This document shows positions 9,136-20,401 of a stretch of 20,401 nt of DNA, piece by piece. Every line of letters begins with the position of its first letter. The stretch's first letter is position 1. The notes under the pieces are model-generated. The model had not been told where the DNA came from, did no database searches, and saw only the letters and a list, made by a program, of their open reading frames with translations. The position numbers and the translations under genes were made by a program. The stretch comes from a virus, in the IMG/VR virus record IMGVR_UViG_3300010331_000048, positions 1 to 20,401 of that record. One strand, written 5' to 3'.

Positions 9136-9555
9136 ATGGAAATATTAATTATTAAAAATAATAAAACTATAGTTAATCATGAATTTAAAACATTAAGTAA
9201 AAAACATGCTGAGGATATGGAGTTAATTGCAACCAAAATTAATAGCAATACTGGGACCAAAAGAGCGGCTATATTTGTGCTAGGTAGTTTACTGTGTTTT
9301 AACAATATTGTTGTAGCGGCAGCAAGTAAGGATCCTTTAAAGGCATTACCTATAGTTGGTGCTAAGATTTTAGATATAGTGCAAATGTTCGGATGGTTTA
9401 TATGCGCAATAGGTGGTGTAATAACAATTTTAAAAGCTCTTATGGCGGGAGATACAAAAAGTATTCCCAAAATAATGATGGGATTTGGTATGGGATTTGC
9501 TTCACTTTATTTATTTCCAGCATTATTAAATATGATTAAAGATATATTTCAATAG
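9136..9555 (+). CDS. VirB2/TrbC-pilin-shaped small membrane protein (139 aa)
   Basis: Layout: a hydrophilic leader of about 42 residues; a hydrophobic stretch at about 43-62 ending 'VVAAAS', a plausible signal-peptidase site; then two transmembrane helices at about 77-99 and 113-134 joined by a short charged loop ('MAGDTKSIPK'). That combination is characteristic of VirB2/TrbC-type pilins of conjugation machines. It is translated from AGGGGGAAG under its own promoter and heads an operon with a second small membrane protein and a conjugation-type ATPase. The pilin reading is structural inference, not a sequence match; it could be a small inner-membrane channel subunit. Such a gene is unexpected beside phage lysis genes. 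Confidence 0.55.
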   Translation: MEILIIKNNKTIVNHEFKTLSKKHAEDMELIATKINSNTGTKRAAIFVLGSLLCFNNIVVAAASKDPLKALPIVGAKILDIVQMFGWFICAIGGVITILKALMAGDTKSIPKIMMGFGMGFASLYLFPALLNMIKDIFQ

Positions 9556-9568
9556 AGGAGGTATCTAT

Positions 9569-10000
9569 ATGTTCCTAAATAGAATGTTAGCAGCCGCACC
9601 AACAGAAATAGAAAAAATGTTATTAGAACAACAGGAAACTCTAAGGAAATTAGCAGAGATTAAAGTTAATGTAGAAAAACTTAAAAGTGGTAGCATTGGG
9701 CAAATGTATGATGCCCCTAATACTCTAAAAACTCCAATTTTTGATATGGGTAGTATTTCATGGGTTGCAAAAGCTGAGAGTTTTTTTAATGCTACAGATA
9801 AGGCTATAAACTGGTTAACGCATCCAGTACTAATAATTAATAGCGTAGCAGGAATTAGTTTTTATATAGCAGTAGCGGTTGGACTTACTGGCCTTATATT
9901 TTATATTGTTGGAATTAAGAAGGGCATGAAATATACTGTAGGAAGTGTGATTGGTTACTCTTTAATTCAAATAGTAAACTATGGGGTGAGCTTATTGTGA
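9569..10000 (+). CDS. Small membrane protein of the ATPase operon (143 aa)
   Basis: ATG 9569 follows GAGGAGGT. Residues about 10-42 form a charged, probably coiled-coil helix. Residues about 75-90 are amphipathic, and two transmembrane helices follow at about 92-115 and 122-142 with a short basic loop between ('GIKKGMKYT'). The gene lies 13 bases after the VirB2-like gene and its stop overlaps the ATPase start (GTGA), so the three are tightly coupled. Membrane position and coupling suggest it anchors or gates for the ATPase. No family is recognised. Confidence 0.6.
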   Translation: MFLNRMLAAAPTEIEKMLLEQQETLRKLAEIKVNVEKLKSGSIGQMYDAPNTLKTPIFDMGSISWVAKAESFFNATDKAINWLTHPVLIINSVAGISFYIAVAVGLTGLIFYIVGIKKGMKYTVGSVIGYSLIQIVNYGVSLL

Positions 10001-12345
10001 TAAGCATGAAATTGTCTAAGTATATTGAAATAGTTTATCCTGTGTACGTGACACTTAAAATAGTTCCAGATACTAGCATAAGGAACTACAATTCTAGCAC
10101 AATTGCAAAGGCCATGAATTACACATATAGGACTATAGCTCAAAGGATTCACAAGGAGGAAAAAAAGTTAAAATGGAAAGTTGATGCCCCAGCCAAAATT
10201 AGTTTCTTTATAGATATTAAAAAAAATGATGTTAGTTTTTATTTTATAGTTCCTGAGCGCCATCTAACCTTAATAAAAGAAAAAATTACTAACACATGGC
10301 CAAAGGCTGCTATCACAATTGCAAATGAAATTAGCCCCTTTTCTAAAGATGCAATTATGTATCAATTAAAATATTCTAAAGAAGATGCTATGAGCCTCAA
10401 TTTGGATAAGAAGTGTAATGAGCCCTTGAATGGTATTCTAAATGTATTAGATGTGCTAGAGGAAGATGACAGGGTGGGAATTTTCTATAATTTTGTACCT
10501 GTACAACAAAAGGGGTGGAGGCAAGAGCACCAAAGGACCATGGATAAAATTAAAAAGAACGAATTTATAGATAAGGAAAAGTTTAATGCCTGGTTTATTA
10601 TTAAAAGTGGAATGATGCTATTAATTAATTTAGTTCAAGACTTTATGGATACTCTTGGTGATTTTCTAGGAGCTGAACGCAAAAGTACAACTCTGTCATT
10701 GGCAGAGGTAGCTATGAGTAGTTTAATTCTAGAGAACACTAAGAAACCAACTAGCGCCACCATGAGCAAAAAGGATTCTACAGTAATAAACACACAAATA
10801 TTAGTCATATCTGAGAGTGAAGATAAGCAAAGACAAAATAATACTGCTATAGGAGTATGTGAAAGCTTCAGCACGATTAATGAAGATAATAAACTAATAT
10901 ATAAAAAAGTAAAAGCAAAAAATATATTTTATGTAAATGATTTAAAAATTGCTGGGGCAGAAGAAAATAAGTGTAGTATTGAAGAATGTCAAAACTTCCT
11001 GGAGCTTCCGGGAAAGGAATTATTAATTCAACATAAAATAATAAAAAAAATTGATGCACTAGAAACCAAAGTTCCAGAAGAATTACAAAGTGGAATTATA
11101 AGAGCAGGAATAAACATGTATAAGGGTATACCATCAAGAGTTTATCAAACAGAGGATGAAGAACTCAGGAATACTATAATGTGCGTTTGTGGACCGAATA
11201 GGAGTGGTAAAACCACACTTATAGCTAATATAGTCAAAGATGTAATGGAAGATGGCAGAAGTGTAATTCTACCTGACTTCTGTGGCAAGTGTGAATTGTC
11301 AGATGCACTTGCTCAAGTAATTCCAGCAAACAAAATTATTAATGTAAATTGTAATGACCTACTGAATGTACAAGGATTTGGATTTAATGAAATAGTACCA
11401 CATGATGAAAGTATGGAAGCATTATATATTTGTGCTAAGAAAAAGGCTGCTAAATTAAAAGAGCTTATTAATTTAATCAACTCAGGTGAAAGTGATCTTG
11501 AAGGAAGAATGGAAAGATATTTAGAGTTTGCAGCGCTTATAGTATTTGTGAGTAATGGTCCTGTAAATGATGTATTTAAAATGCTAAAGGATCATGTTCT
11601 AAGACATAAATACATTAATAGCATTCCAGAAGAGCTTGAATCAAATATGGAAGAATATGTGGAAGAATTATTGGAGATAGATGAGATAGGGAAAGCCAAA
11701 GAAAATTTAGGGGAGGTAATAGGTACAAAAATGGGGAGCATCTCTGCAATACTAAGTAGGATCCATAGACTTAAAGAAAATGCCTATATAGAAAAAATGT
11801 TAAAAAAAGATTGTAAGGACAATATAAATTTAATTGATGCAATGCAAGGTGGTAAATTGATTTGCATAAGGATGAGCACAGATATGTTTGGCACAAATGC
11901 GGAGAAAGATATATTCGTATGTTATTGGATGGTTAAAATGTGGGCAGCTCTCCAGAAGAGATTTAATGATGTAGAGAGGGAGGACTTAACTCAGGCAGTA
12001 ATACTTATAGATGAGTTATATCAGGTTAAAAATTGTGAAATATATCTAACTAGTATATTAAGCCAAATAGCCAGGCATAGAATTAAAATAATTTTAAGTT
12101 GTCACCATCTAGCCCAAATTCCAGTAATTCAGAATGAAATGAAATCCGCGCTCTGTAGTTATACATTTATAGCTGGAAGCAATAAGAAAAATTTTAATGC
12201 TATGAAAGAAGAATTTACTGATAAAGGTTACGAACTAGAAGACTTGCTACATTTAAAAAGACACAATGCATTAAATTTGTTAGCTTATGAGGGAGGATAC
12301 TGGGCAGGGATAACGCAACTTCCTTCACCAATTAAGAGGATGTAG
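9997..12345 (+). CDS. Conjugation-type (VirD4/TraG/HerA-like) P-loop ATPase, 782 aa
   Basis: Start GTG 9997 with GGGGTGA seven bases upstream. The C-terminal half is an additional-strand P-loop ATPase: Walker A 'GPNRSGKTT' at residues 399-407, Walker B 'ILIDE' at 669-673, then 'SQIARHRIK' at 689-697 and 'LSCHHLAQIP' just after, the arrangement seen in VirD4/TraG coupling proteins and HerA translocases. The first 380 residues are not a familiar domain; 'GIFYNFVPVQQKGWR' near 163-177 and a hydrophobic stretch near 205-215 stand out. No relaxase, VirB4 or other secretion gene is nearby, so the substrate is unknown (DNA or protein). The hairpin terminator follows directly. Confidence 0.75.
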   Translation: MISMKLSKYIEIVYPVYVTLKIVPDTSIRNYNSSTIAKAMNYTYRTIAQRIHKEEKKLKWKVDAPAKISFFIDIKKNDVSFYFIVPERHLTLIKEKITNTWPKAAITIANEISPFSKDAIMYQLKYSKEDAMSLNLDKKCNEPLNGILNVLDVLEEDDRVGIFYNFVPVQQKGWRQEHQRTMDKIKKNEFIDKEKFNAWFIIKSGMMLLINLVQDFMDTLGDFLGAERKSTTLSLAEVAMSSLILENTKKPTSATMSKKDSTVINTQILVISESEDKQRQNNTAIGVCESFSTINEDNKLIYKKVKAKNIFYVNDLKIAGAEENKCSIEECQNFLELPGKELLIQHKIIKKIDALETKVPEELQSGIIRAGINMYKGIPSRVYQTEDEELRNTIMCVCGPNRSGKTTLIANIVKDVMEDGRSVILPDFCGKCELSDALAQVIPANKIINVNCNDLLNVQGFGFNEIVPHDESMEALYICAKKKAAKLKELINLINSGESDLEGRMERYLEFAALIVFVSNGPVNDVFKMLKDHVLRHKYINSIPEELESNMEEYVEELLEIDEIGKAKENLGEVIGTKMGSISAILSRIHRLKENAYIEKMLKKDCKDNINLIDAMQGGKLICIRMSTDMFGTNAEKDIFVCYWMVKMWAALQKRFNDVEREDLTQAVILIDELYQVKNCEIYLTSILSQIARHRIKIILSCHHLAQIPVIQNEMKSALCSYTFIAGSNKKNFNAMKEEFTDKGYELEDLLHLKRHNALNLLAYEGGYWAGITQLPSPIKRM

Positions 12346-13593: not shown

Positions 13594-13625
13594 AAAAAGC
13601 TATTAGATTAAATCAATAGCTTTTT
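13594..13625. terminator. Bidirectional terminator at the integrase 3' end
   Basis: AAAAAGCTATT (13594-13604) pairs with AATAGCTTTTT (13615-13625) around a ten-base loop. T-runs follow in both directions, and the integrase stop codon (13603-13605) overlaps one arm. Confidence 0.85.
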
Positions 13626-14625
13626 TTAATTGCTCTATATCTTTATGTGTATAAACATTAGCAGTAGTTTCATAACTAGCATGACCTATTATCTTTTGTA
13701 GAGCAATTGTATCAGCTCCAGCATTACTCATTAGAGTTGCAAATGTATGTCTGCAATCATGTGGTTTATGTTTAAAGTTCAATTGCTCCATAATTGGTGT
13801 GAATTTCTCTTTGTAATAATTTTCATATTTGAACTGCTTTCCATTTTCTCTAGCAATTAAATACTCGTTACCCTCAGATACTCTAGCAGATATCATATCA
13901 AAAATTTTACTACTTATTGGTATAATCCTATCTTTACCAGCATCTGTCTTAATTCCACCAGTTATGGTCCTGTTCTCCAAATCTACATCTCCTGGCTTAA
14001 GTATAATTAATTCTCCTATTCTAAGGCCTGTATAAATCATAATTAAAATAGTATCTACGTATTTAATACTATCTTTAACTTCAATTAATCTTTTTATTTC
14101 CTTATCAGAAAATGCCTTTCTTGTGCTGTCCTCGGTATTTTTACCTATTTCTACGTAGTTTGAATAGTCCTTATTTATAATATCATTTTCCATTGCAAAT
14201 TTAAAAAGCTGATTATAAAGAACTTTAATTTTTCTTAAGTTACCATGTTTTTTACCACATGTCCTTATAACGTCTTGCATATGCTTAGTTCTTATATCGA
14301 CAAACTTCATATCATGTAGAGCAGCGCAAGTTATATACGCAGCCTTATAACCATTAACTGCGCTTTGAGTTACACTTTCAAACTTACCTACATTCCAATT
14401 ATTATATACATCACTAAAAGTTACAGTTGATACTTCTATACTATAGGGATCCTTATTAAAATCAGCCAAGGCTTGCATTGCTAATTCCCTTTTTTCATAA
14501 TATCCTATAGTCTGATATAACTGTTTTGCATTATCATCCCATCCTATAGTCTTACGAGCCATGAAAGGCTTTCTTCTTTTGCCACTTAACTTATAAACTG
14601 ATCCATAGCCATTTGGGTTTCTCAT
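13603..14625 (-). CDS. int: Tyrosine-family phage integrase
   Basis: A 340-aa recombinase with all catalytic residues visible: Arg202 ('TGLRIGE'), Lys231 ('AGKDR'), His289 and Arg292 ('HDCRH'), His315 ('GHAS') and nucleophile Tyr325 ('NVYTH'). Residues about 1-55 are a basic, beta-rich arm-binding (AP2-like) domain, 65-155 the core-binding SAM-like domain, and 170-340 the catalytic domain. It inserts and excises the phage genome by recombining attP with attB. AAAGGAG lies five bases before the ATG. It is transcribed after the repressor gene, with only 24 bases between them, so both likely share the repressor promoter. Five arm sites lie just past its end. Confidence 0.96.
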   Translation of the reverse strand: MRNPNGYGSVYKLSGKRRKPFMARKTIGWDDNAKQLYQTIGYYEKRELAMQALADFNKDPYSIEVSTVTFSDVYNNWNVGKFESVTQSAVNGYKAAYITCAALHDMKFVDIRTKHMQDVIRTCGKKHGNLRKIKVLYNQLFKFAMENDIINKDYSNYVEIGKNTEDSTRKAFSDKEIKRLIEVKDSIKYVDTILIMIYTGLRIGELIILKPGDVDLENRTITGGIKTDAGKDRIIPISSKIFDMISARVSEGNEYLIARENGKQFKYENYYKEKFTPIMEQLNFKHKPHDCRHTFATLMSNAGADTIALQKIIGHASYETTANVYTHKDIEQLKKAIDLI

Positions 14626-14649: not shown

Positions 14650-15102
14650 TTATTTTTTATATTTATAACCAACCATTTTCATTTGTTCTAATAAAGCATT
14701 CCCGAATTCCATAACATCTCTGTCTGACATTTCATTTATATTAAAACCCTCAGCTGCAAACATTTGGTGCTTACTTATGTAAGCCCTAGCTTCCTCTGGA
14801 CAAGTAAATTGCTCAGGAACTACATCTAGATTGGATTCTATTTTTTTTGCATTACTTACTTTATCAGGAGCATATATTGCTTCCATCTCTTTAACTAAAG
14901 AATCCTGTATTTCTTTAAAAAATTCATCAACTGAAACATCAAGAGCATCTGCAAGCTTATTTAGAATTTTAGTAGACGGATTAGTTTTTTCATTTCGCTC
15001 AATAGCAGAAATATAACTTGCGTTCATTTTGGCTTTTCTTGCCAACTCATTTACACCAAGTCCTTTCTGTTCTCTTAGATCTTTTATTTTATCACCTAGC
15101 AT
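14650..15102 (-). CDS. CI-like phage repressor without peptidase domain
   Basis: A 150-aa protein with a canonical XRE helix-turn-helix at residues about 5-60 ('VNELARKAKMNASYISAIERN'), then an acidic, mostly helical C-terminal region (about 70-150) likely for oligomerisation. There is no S24 autocleavage domain, so inactivation cannot follow lambda-type RecA self-cleavage; an antirepressor or ImmA-like protease is the usual alternative. GGAGG precedes the ATG. Position divergent from a Cro-like gene, with seven operators between them, makes it the master lysogeny repressor. Confidence 0.88.
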   Translation of the reverse strand: MLGDKIKDLREQKGLGVNELARKAKMNASYISAIERNEKTNPSTKILNKLADALDVSVDEFFKEIQDSLVKEMEAIYAPDKVSNAKKIESNLDVVPEQFTCPEEARAYISKHQMFAAEGFNINEMSDRDVMEFGNALLEQMKMVGYKYKK

Positions 15103-16467: not shown

Positions 16468-16629
16468 ATGGCAGGTGGAAAAACTAGATGCAGCCAATGT
16501 GTACATGCTAGTAAAAAAGCAACTGAAAAGCCTTGTGACAAATGTGGTGAAGTTCAATTCTGTAGAAACAAGGTTGCTAATCAATTCCTAGATGCCAGTA
16601 AAAATTTAATTAGTGGCGATTTGAAATGA
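16468..16629 (+). CDS. Zinc-ribbon small protein (53 aa)
   Basis: ATG 16468 directly follows the sigma gene behind GAGAGGTGAG. Cysteines at residues 8, 11, 23 and 26 (CxxC, 11 residues, CxxC) form a probable zinc site, with another cysteine at 32. The rest is basic and helical. The stop overlaps the next start (ATGA). Possible nucleic-acid or protein binding; no family is recognised. Confidence 0.65.
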   Translation: MAGGKTRCSQCVHASKKATEKPCDKCGEVQFCRNKVANQFLDASKNLISGDLK

Positions 16630-16817
16630 TAATCAAGATTAAATGCAAAGAGTGTAGAGCAATATGGCGAATAAAAAAAGATACATTAAAAGAAGCCAGG
16701 AAAACTAAAAAGGATTATAAAGGTTGCCTCTGCAGAACATGTGATTTTAAGGCACTAGCGAATAAAACCGCAAAAGAAATTGTGAGAGGAGCTAAACATT
16801 ATGACACCTATAGGTAA
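16626..16817 (+). CDS. Zinc-ribbon small protein (63 aa)
   Basis: It starts inside the stop of the preceding zinc-ribbon gene. Two CxxC-like pairs are seen, 'CKEC' at residues 7-10 and 'CLCRTC' at about 34-39, separated by a Lys-rich helix. The two adjacent genes thus encode different tiny putative zinc proteins, common in phage early regions and of unknown role. Its end overlaps the next membrane-protein gene by 17 bases. Confidence 0.65.
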   Translation: MIIKIKCKECRAIWRIKKDTLKEARKTKKDYKGCLCRTCDFKALANKTAKEIVRGAKHYDTYR

Positions 16818-16944
16818 ATTAGTAATGACTGTTTATAGCCTTGTAGTTGTAGGTGGATTTATTATAAAGGACTTGAAAAGAGGTGATAAAGGATGGAAAG
16901 GGGTGCTACTTATACCAACACTAATATTATTAATGAACATGTAG
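16801..16944 (+). CDS. Two-helix membrane protein (47 aa), nested start
   Basis: ATG 16801 lies inside the zinc-ribbon gene, preceded by AGAGGAG at good spacing. Two hydrophobic helices (about residues 5-22 and 34-47) flank a short basic loop ('KDLKRGDKGWKG'). Its last 52 bases overlap the next gene in another frame. Small membrane proteins of this type in early regions may alter host membranes or exclude other phages, but nothing specific is visible. Confidence 0.5.
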   Translation: MTPIGKLVMTVYSLVVVGGFIIKDLKRGDKGWKGVLLIPTLILLMNM

Positions 16945-17147
16945 AAAATGTTATCAAGTTGTATTTTTCAGGGTTCTCAGTAAGAGAGGCATTAAAAGAA
17001 GTTATGACTACAGAAGTATTACGAAAGAAATTAAACAAGCTTATAATAGAAAAAAATTATGATCTTACTGACCTAGAAGTAATTAGGTTATCCCAGAGAT
17101 TAGATAAGCACATAGTAAAAGAACAAAGAAAAAAGGCTGCTCTGTAA
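16893..17147 (+). CDS. Spo0E-like aspartyl-phosphate phosphatase (84 aa)
   Basis: Residues about 42-79 match the Spo0E family: 'LRKKLNKLIIEKNYDLTDLEV' followed by 'RLSQRLDKHIVKEQ', where 'SQRLD' (67-71) replaces the typical SQELD. Spo0E proteins dephosphorylate Spo0A~P and so block entry into sporulation. The N-terminal 41 residues are extra; an internal ATG at 17004 would give a 47-aa protein of the usual family length but has a poor ribosome-binding site, whereas ATG 16893 has AGAGGTG. A phage could use it to keep the host from sporulating during infection. The Glu-to-Arg change in the motif leaves activity open. Confidence 0.7.
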   Translation: MERGATYTNTNIINEHVENVIKLYFSGFSVREALKEVMTTEVLRKKLNKLIIEKNYDLTDLEVIRLSQRLDKHIVKEQRKKAAL

Positions 17148-17206: not shown

Positions 17207-17356
17207 ATGGAGAAGAAATATAAGTATGTATTAGAAGGAGTATTGGCAAATCTGAGGTCGATAGATGGCCCCAATGAAGCTGATGAATATATCAATGACT
17301 CTATAAGAATTATTTCCAAAGTCTTAAAGGATGGTGAATTAAATGAAAACTTATAA
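17207..17356 (+). CDS. Hypothetical 49-aa early protein
   Basis: ATG 17207 follows GTGAGG. The product is acidic and helical ('LEGVLANLRSIDGPNEADEYINDSIRIISKVL'-like, residues 9-40), without membrane segments or known motif. It overlaps the next gene by 14 bases, supporting expression as part of the early operon. No family is recognised. Confidence 0.55.
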   Translation: MEKKYKYVLEGVLANLRSIDGPNEADEYINDSIRIISKVLKDGELNENL

Positions 17357-19385: not shown

Positions 19386-19835
19386 ATGAAAATAACAGCA
19401 GAATTTAATTCAACAGAGGAACTAATAAGCTTCATTGGTGCATTTGATACTAAGAGCTCCATCCCAAGTCAAGGTGTTACTAATATAACCAATGCAACTC
19501 CAACTGCAGCAGAGACTAAGAAAGCAGCTAAGAATGAGGTTGTTAAAAAGGAGGACAAACCTGTAGAGCCAGTTAAAACAGAAACTCTAAAGGAAGAAAT
19601 TAAAGAAATTGTTCCAACTAAAGATGCTGAAATTATTAAAGAAGAAACTAAGGCCACTGAGGGAGAAGTTGAAATTACTAAAGAGATGGTAAGAGAAAGA
19701 CTTGGAGTGATAATGAAGTCAGGCAAGCAGGCAGAAGTTAAAGCACTTGTAGCTAAACATGGTGCTAGTAAATTACCTGATCTAAAAGAAGAGGAATACG
19801 CAGCAGTATATCAGGAAGCGGAGAAATTACTATAA
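19386..19835 (+). CDS. Hypothetical 149-aa protein with acidic linker
   Basis: Three parts are visible: a short structured N-terminus (1-22), a low-complexity Glu/Lys/Thr/Pro linker (about 35-98), and a compact helical C-terminal domain (about 99-149, 'MVRERLGVIMKSGKQAEVKALVAKHG' character) that recurs at the ends of phage proteins of this neighbourhood. The linker suggests a tether between two binding domains. The stop overlaps the next start (TAATG). Function is unknown. Confidence 0.65.
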   Translation: MKITAEFNSTEELISFIGAFDTKSSIPSQGVTNITNATPTAAETKKAAKNEVVKKEDKPVEPVKTETLKEEIKEIVPTKDAEIIKEETKATEGEVEITKEMVRERLGVIMKSGKQAEVKALVAKHGASKLPDLKEEEYAAVYQEAEKLL

Positions 19836-20401
19836 TGGCACAGCATGCAATATTAAGCGCAAGTGGAGCCAAGAAGTGGTTAAATTGCCCGCCTAGTGCT
19901 AGATTGGAACAACAATTTAGTAATAAAACTTCTACAGCTGCAGAAGAGGGAACCTTGGCGCATGAGCTTGGGGAGTTAACATTACAGAAAGAATTAAAAT
20001 TTATAAGTACTAGAAAATTCAATTCTGAATTTAAGAAGATAGAAACACATGAGCTTTTTACTTCAGACATGCCTGACTATGTAGATATTTATGTTTCTAC
20101 TTGTATGGAAAAAGTAGCAGAAGCTAGGGCAAAAACCTCAGATGCGATTATTAGTCTAGAACAGAGACTTAATTACAGTAGATGGGTACCGGAAGGCTTT
20201 GGTACCGGAGACATGGTCATTATTGCAGATGGAACAATTGAAATTATTGACCTTAAGTATGGTAAAGGTGCTCCAGTAAGTGCGATAGATAATATACAAA
20301 TGAGACTTTATGCTCTAGGAGCAATAGCAGAGTTTGAATTTCTATATGATATGCAAAATGTAAAAATGACTATTATCCAACCTAGATTAGATAGCATTAG
20401 C
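19835..20401 (+). CDS. DUF2800 protein, PD-(D/E)XK nuclease-like (partial)
   Basis: The first 189 residues are present; the gene runs off the right edge. Conserved nuclease marks are visible: 'EGTLAHE' (His43), 'GTGD' with Asp126, 'IDLKYG' with Asp139 and Lys141, and 'QMRLY' (155-159), the QxxxY-type motif of RecB/Cas4-like PD-(D/E)XK nucleases. DUF2800 genes usually sit by phage recombination genes and probably process DNA ends. Start is coupled to the preceding gene. Confidence 0.85.
   Translation, partial: MAQHAILSASGAKKWLNCPPSARLEQQFSNKTSTAAEEGTLAHELGELTLQKELKFISTRKFNSEFKKIETHELFTSDMPDYVDIYVSTCMEKVAEARAKTSDAIISLEQRLNYSRWVPEGFGTGDMVIIADGTIEIIDLKYGKGAPVSAIDNIQMRLYALGAIAEFEFLYDMQNVKMTIIQPRLDSIS

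Follow-up and report, generated by a model that had tools for sequence, protein, structure and literature searches.

Genomic context of the locus

The window (the whole stretch of DNA analysed, a complete virus record of 20,401 bases) carries genes for a tail, an endolysin-type amidase, an integrase and a CI-like repressor, plus a rightward operon, as assigned with Pfam and PHROGs (Table 1). This gene content marks it as a fragment of a temperate clostridial phage, since it includes a tyrosine integrase gene, and its relatives point to a host among the Clostridiaceae. The rightward operon opens with a Cro/XRE-type gene followed by the RNA polymerase sigma factor gene and lies opposite the repressor and integrase, an arrangement that agrees with the placement of the gene studied here in an early operon by the initial annotation. 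A promoter scan of this DNA found as many promoter-like sites as expected by chance, with no above-chance match for a promoter of the gene's own, and the search for Spo0A boxes (TTGTCGAA) gave 8 near-matches against 12.6 expected, thus no signal.

Table 1. Features of the window that bear on the spo0E-like gene, with their supporting evidence.
Feature	Position	Strand	Evidence or remark
Tyrosine integrase	13603..14625	-	context gene
CI-like XRE repressor, divergent from the operon	14650..15102	-	context gene; Pfam, PHROGs
Phage RNA polymerase sigma factor, head of the segment	15882..16466	+	phrog_351, E=4e-33
63-aa protein with Cys pairs, zinc-ribbon-like	16626..16817	+	homologues in L219, L220; absent in L256
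47-aa gene, overlaps the spo0E-like gene by 52 nt	16801..16944	+	phrog_35134, E=3e-13
Shine-Dalgarno sequence AGAGGTGA for the 84-aa start	16879..16886	+	conserved in four phages
84-aa protein, N-terminal phage module plus Spo0E-like domain	16893..17147	+	homologues, purifying selection
N-terminal module, residues 12-38: helix, Gly turn, helix (...LYFSGFSVREALKEV...)	16926..17006	+	phrog_25562, E=1.9e-5
Spo0E-like domain, residues 41-76	17013..17120	+	PF09388; 2C0S ranked first by Foldseek and VIA-align
Signature SQRLD (SxxxD), residues 67-71	17091..17105	+	census; definition from PMC11115286
49-aa gene 3' of the cassette (MEKKYKYVLEGVLANLRSIDGPNEADEYI...)	17207..17356	+	present in L002, L003, L220

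In the genome scan, the productive query was the protein encoded at 19835-20401, which adjoins a phrog_674 protein. Elsewhere in the window, the interval from the lysis genes to the integrase (9136-12345) encodes a P-loop ATPase of 782 aa as well as two small membrane proteins; by eye the ATPase resembles a VirD4/TraG-type coupling protein or a T4SS-like one, which is unusual cargo for a siphophage. The window's 49-aa gene has a homologue in prophage L219 (L219:10468-10806) that is joined to an XRE-type helix-turn-helix.

An 84-residue protein with a Spo0E-like domain

The product of the 84-aa reading frame is MERGATYTNTNIINEHVENVIKLYFSGFSVREALKEVMTTEVLRKKLNKLIIEKNYDLTDLEVIRLSQRLDKHIVKEQRKKAAL. 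Its C-terminal half matches the PF09388 SpoOE-like family at residues 41-76 (E=6.6e-10, 39.3 bits against a Pfam cut-off of 23), the sole such match within the 20,401-base record, so that the family membership proposed in the initial annotation is upheld, as are the reading frame itself and the roughly 41 extra N-terminal residues, about 40 of which lie 5' of the Pfam match; a Shine-Dalgarno sequence precedes the frame. Among PHROGs, the Spo0E part matched phrog_35355 and, weakly, phrog_31003, both of which are annotated as ‘unknown function’; an NCBIfam search of the 84-aa protein returned no match.

Three full-length homologues, with 54-69% identity, are encoded by L220, L219 and the viral contig L256. 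When the window gene was compared with that of L220, the closest of the three, pN/pS was 0.36 over the whole gene and 0.11 over codons 18-40, indicating purifying selection; the value against L219 was 0.45. Codons 1-17, which overlap the membrane-protein gene, had the reversed selection pattern in the comparison with L220, as would fit the other frame being the constrained one there. The three full-length homologues and the whole-gene pN/pS of 0.36 confirm, at the level of sequence comparison, that the frame is a real gene for a Spo0E-like protein, beyond what chance would give. By tblastn, no relative was found among 50,697 phage records with the whole protein or with either half, nor among plasmids with the whole protein.

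The accepted Spo0E signature is SxxxD, in which the aspartate is critical (PMC11115286). For comparison with the window's SQRLD, PF09388 matches were sampled across 245 clostridial genomes; 78 genomes had at least one, and 117 distinct domains entered the census. Serine occupies the first motif position in all 117 domains, with Gln at the second in 66, Leu at the fourth in 113 and Asp at the fifth in 112, while the third position is variable (E 44, K 20, Q 16, R 11, D 5, L 5). By frequency SQELD leads, followed by SQKLD and then SQRLD, so the signature that the initial annotation had regarded as altered is an ordinary one. As Arg occurs at this position in 11 of 117 domains and the residue varies among the protein's own homologues (SQKLD in L219 and L256, SQRLD in L220), no message can be read from it. 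The residues that define the signature, S67 and D71, are invariant across the window protein and its three homologues.

An overlapping cassette shared by four phages

The fusion of N-terminal module and Spo0E-like domain occurs in the window and in three other prophages or phages: L220 (genome G471), L219 (genome G468) and viral contig L256. In all four, the fused gene follows a gene for a 47-aa predicted membrane protein, probably with two membrane-spanning segments when judged by eye, and the two genes overlap by exactly 52 nt in the +2 frame. The Shine-Dalgarno sequence is followed in the four phages by an ATG or TTG start codon. Conservation of both this ribosome-binding site and the overlap establishes the start codon and thereby the product, which is the 84-aa form. 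The shorter 47-aa form considered in the initial annotation would start at an internal Met, residue 38, that is not conserved in L219 or L256, and it is accordingly disfavoured.

The surroundings of the gene pair differ between phages. On its 5' side, three of the four have the 63-aa Cys-rich gene and L256 has an antirepressor-like gene instead; on its 3' side lie a phrog_674-type protein in the window and an ATPase and RecT in L219 and L220. The sigma factor, the phrog_674 protein, the 49-aa gene and a Cys-rich gene of 51-53 aa recur in L002 and L003, two relatives of the window region in which the spo0E-like gene is missing and other small genes stand at the position of the pair. This position is therefore a variable slot, and the spo0E-like gene is an accessory one since two close relatives do without it. 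As these comparisons show, the fused gene and the overlapping 47-aa gene travel between phages as one exchangeable cassette. When the 47-aa gene was used as a query, no further viral contig was recovered. In L256 (1-2082), a serine recombinase gene lies at a phage end, directly next to a B12-binding radical-SAM-like gene that is truncated; this junction is probably the site of integration into the host.

The N-terminal module also occurs on its own in prophages

Residues 15-37 of the 84-aa protein match phrog_25562, a family annotated as ‘unknown function’, and the first 41 residues align to a prophage protein (L034, identical in viral contig L168) with a zinc-ribbon-like C-terminal half in place of Spo0E, which suggests that the module accepts different C-terminal partners. 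The gene for this zinc-ribbon fusion adjoins a DnaB-type helicase gene in both cases (L034:1492-1746 and L168:3992-4246). A strict DNA pattern for LYFxGxSV gave no match, at least partly because L168 uses a CTA leucine codon.

A profile of the module was built from the residues 5' of the Spo0E match and those of three relatives, leaving out the Spo0E part. When 206 Clostridiaceae genomes were searched with it, about 20 loci matched at E<1e-3. Most of these encode stand-alone proteins of about 35-60 aa; 16 of 19 members match phrog_25562, and Pfam found no convincing domain over the module in the 19. Although it contained no Spo0E residues, the profile also recovered two proteins that are homologous to the window protein over its full length (L192/L219 and L194/L220). 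A separate Spo0E-like gene lies within 1.5 kb of the unfused module at 5 of 16 loci (L190, L191, L193, L197 and L198) and within 8 kb at 8 of 16, always on the same strand, where random placement would give 0.05 and 0.25, respectively; a 17th unfused locus, L207, which likewise has no Spo0E-like gene nearby, was left out of this test. Because module and spo0E genes both reside in prophages, prophage recT loci of the same bacterial family were used as a control, and none of 30 had a Spo0E-like domain within 1.5 kb (Fisher p=0.003). The module was not fused upstream of Spo0E in any of 118 sampled clostridial Spo0E frames, 93 of which have upstream space too short for 30 residues. Since unfused modules adjoin spo0E genes and the module is absent from the sampled Spo0E frames, the window protein is most readily explained as two small phage proteins, neighbours elsewhere, that have here been fused.

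Predicted structure

An AlphaFold model made from a two-sequence input, with the L256 homologue as the second sequence, contains three helices (residues 3-25, 30-53 and 61-83) and has a mean pLDDT of 83.5, rising to about 94 over residues 41-70; a single-sequence model reached a pLDDT of 62 and had no structural match. Helices 30-53 and 61-83 form an antiparallel two-helix hairpin as in the Spo0E family, with scores that are modest, as befits a small helical protein. The best match in the PDB was 2C0S, a Spo0E-type aspartyl-phosphate phosphatase from Bacillus, in both Foldseek (probability 0.90, rmsd 1.5, but E 1.6) and VIA-align (Z 7.4, rmsd 1.4 over 52 residues, model residues 31-84). Z-scores of this size are common among helical proteins and the runners-up are close to 2C0S, so weight is placed on the agreement of the first rank with the sequence match. 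At the sequence level, 2BZB and 2C0S are also retrieved with a profile made from 12 Spo0E-like domains. A search of a viral structure library with the model gave nothing significant, and phmmer matches in the PDB to designed dTor proteins were dismissed as repeat-driven artefacts.

According to the model, Spo0E helix 1 begins with what was counted as the module's second helix, which would leave one helix and the Gly turn, residues 1-29, as the true addition.

Proposed function and alternative explanations

It is proposed that the window gene encodes an early-lytic phage protein whose Spo0E-like domain acts on host Spo0A~P to prevent sporulation, with a rough probability of 0.55. This proposal draws on the family assignment, the fold prediction, the fusion, the cassette and the purifying selection. 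The gene would be transcribed early after induction or infection, as expected from its location in an operon divergent from the CI-like repressor. The C-terminal hairpin would then bind the receiver domain of host Spo0A~P and place the SxxxD aspartate at the phosphorylated site, where the phosphate may be removed, if the protein is a phosphatase like others of its family, or masked; with Spo0A kept unphosphorylated, a doomed cell would not be committed to sporulation. For the other role raised in the initial annotation, keeping the host from curing itself of the phage, the analysis turned up evidence in neither direction. The helix-turn-helix-like N-terminal module is an addition made by the phage; its second helix passes into the first helix of Spo0E, so that the predicted protein has three helices, and the module most likely adds a contact, either to a partner protein or for dimerisation. 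As for the presumed target, spo0A is present in all seven checked genomes that contain the fusion or an adjacent pair, these being genomes of relatives and not that of the window's own host. Spo0E is known to bind the Spo0A receiver domain, and its loss raises sporulation in Bacillus and C. difficile (PMC11115286).

The interfaces between Spo0E and Spo0A are species-specific, and in C. difficile the Spo0E protein also binds RstA and has an influence on motility that does not depend on Spo0A (PMC11115286); the window protein could therefore have targets besides Spo0A. It is nevertheless unlikely that the domain acts on another partner altogether, such as a different response regulator or an RRNPP/RstA-like regulator, in which case motility, stress or quorum-sensing pathways or phage promoters would be tuned rather than sporulation as such. 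The RstA route is a precedent for such a partner, a single clostridial genome can contain as many as 14-15 Spo0E-like genes, and viral spo0E genes adjoin RRNPP quorum-sensing genes (PMC10075063). However, the target best established for the family is Spo0A, and no RRNPP receptor or propeptide was recognised among the neighbours searched, which comprised part of the reading frames of the 20-kb fragment compared with Pfam and PHROGs.

The cassette raises the question of what the functional unit is. That four phages agree in gene order and in the 52-nt overlap although the neighbouring genes differ could mean that the 47-aa membrane protein tethers the fused protein, or is regulated by it, with the module as the tether and a membrane site, for example near the sensor kinases that feed Spo0A, as the destination. 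This is considered quite unlikely, as the overlap may persist merely because one gene holds the ribosome-binding site of the other. It is more improbable still that the gene is expressed from the prophage to delay sporulation of lysogens (lysogenic conversion) and does not serve lytic growth. The accessory, mobile distribution of the gene would suit such a role, and a passage of PMC10075063 cites a C. acetobutylicum prophage quorum-sensing receptor mutant with about threefold fewer spores, but in lysogens the CI-like repressor should keep the divergent operon, and this gene with it, silent, and the promoter scan offers it no promoter of its own. A bolder reading, less likely than not, can also be considered, in which the module is a phage-specific adaptor that redirects small regulatory domains such as Spo0E or the zinc ribbon, and the fused protein and its 47-aa membrane partner act jointly as a portable anti-sporulation cassette, a type of Spo0A control undescribed for cellular Spo0E.

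Relation to known systems

By sporulating, a cell can escape phages, but spores can also carry phages along. YqaH of B. subtilis is a prophage protein that binds Spo0A; to our knowledge, phage steering of the Spo0A switch is a largely untested field. The window protein shares with the Spo0E phosphatases (PF09388; solved as 2C0S and 2BZB) the two-helix hairpin, the SxxxD signature and a size in the range of 40-100 aa, but differs from them in the N-terminal phage module that continues into Spo0E helix 1 in the model. Spo0E family genes have been reported in phages, as homologues beside RRNPP genes that were proposed to manipulate sporulation (PMC10075063) and as gp70 of Brevibacillus phage SecTim467 (PMC4909266), so the Spo0E part and the idea of a sporulation hijack are already known; unlike these genes, that of the window is fused to the module and overlaps the gene for the 47-aa membrane protein. 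No description of the module fusion or of the 52-nt overlapping cassette was found in the open-access papers searched. Other regulators of sporulation carried by phages of spore-formers belong to different families and act at a different step: phage sigma factors lower spore yield (PMC9429907), and gut phages carry truncated spo0A (PMC10294663, where Spo0E is not named).

A small cassette conserved in four phages leads to predictions on S67, D71, the module and the membrane partner. In addition, phrog_25562, whose members resemble the module but stand alone where the window copy is fused to Spo0E, gains a functional hypothesis as an otherwise unannotated phage family, and phrog_31003 and phrog_35355 could be annotated as Spo0E-like on the basis of their matches to such domains. 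Clostridial Spo0E-like domains were also seen inside open frames of 200-340 aa (L071, L042, L092 and other long frames), so fusions of Spo0E to larger proteins may be more numerous than annotation indicates.
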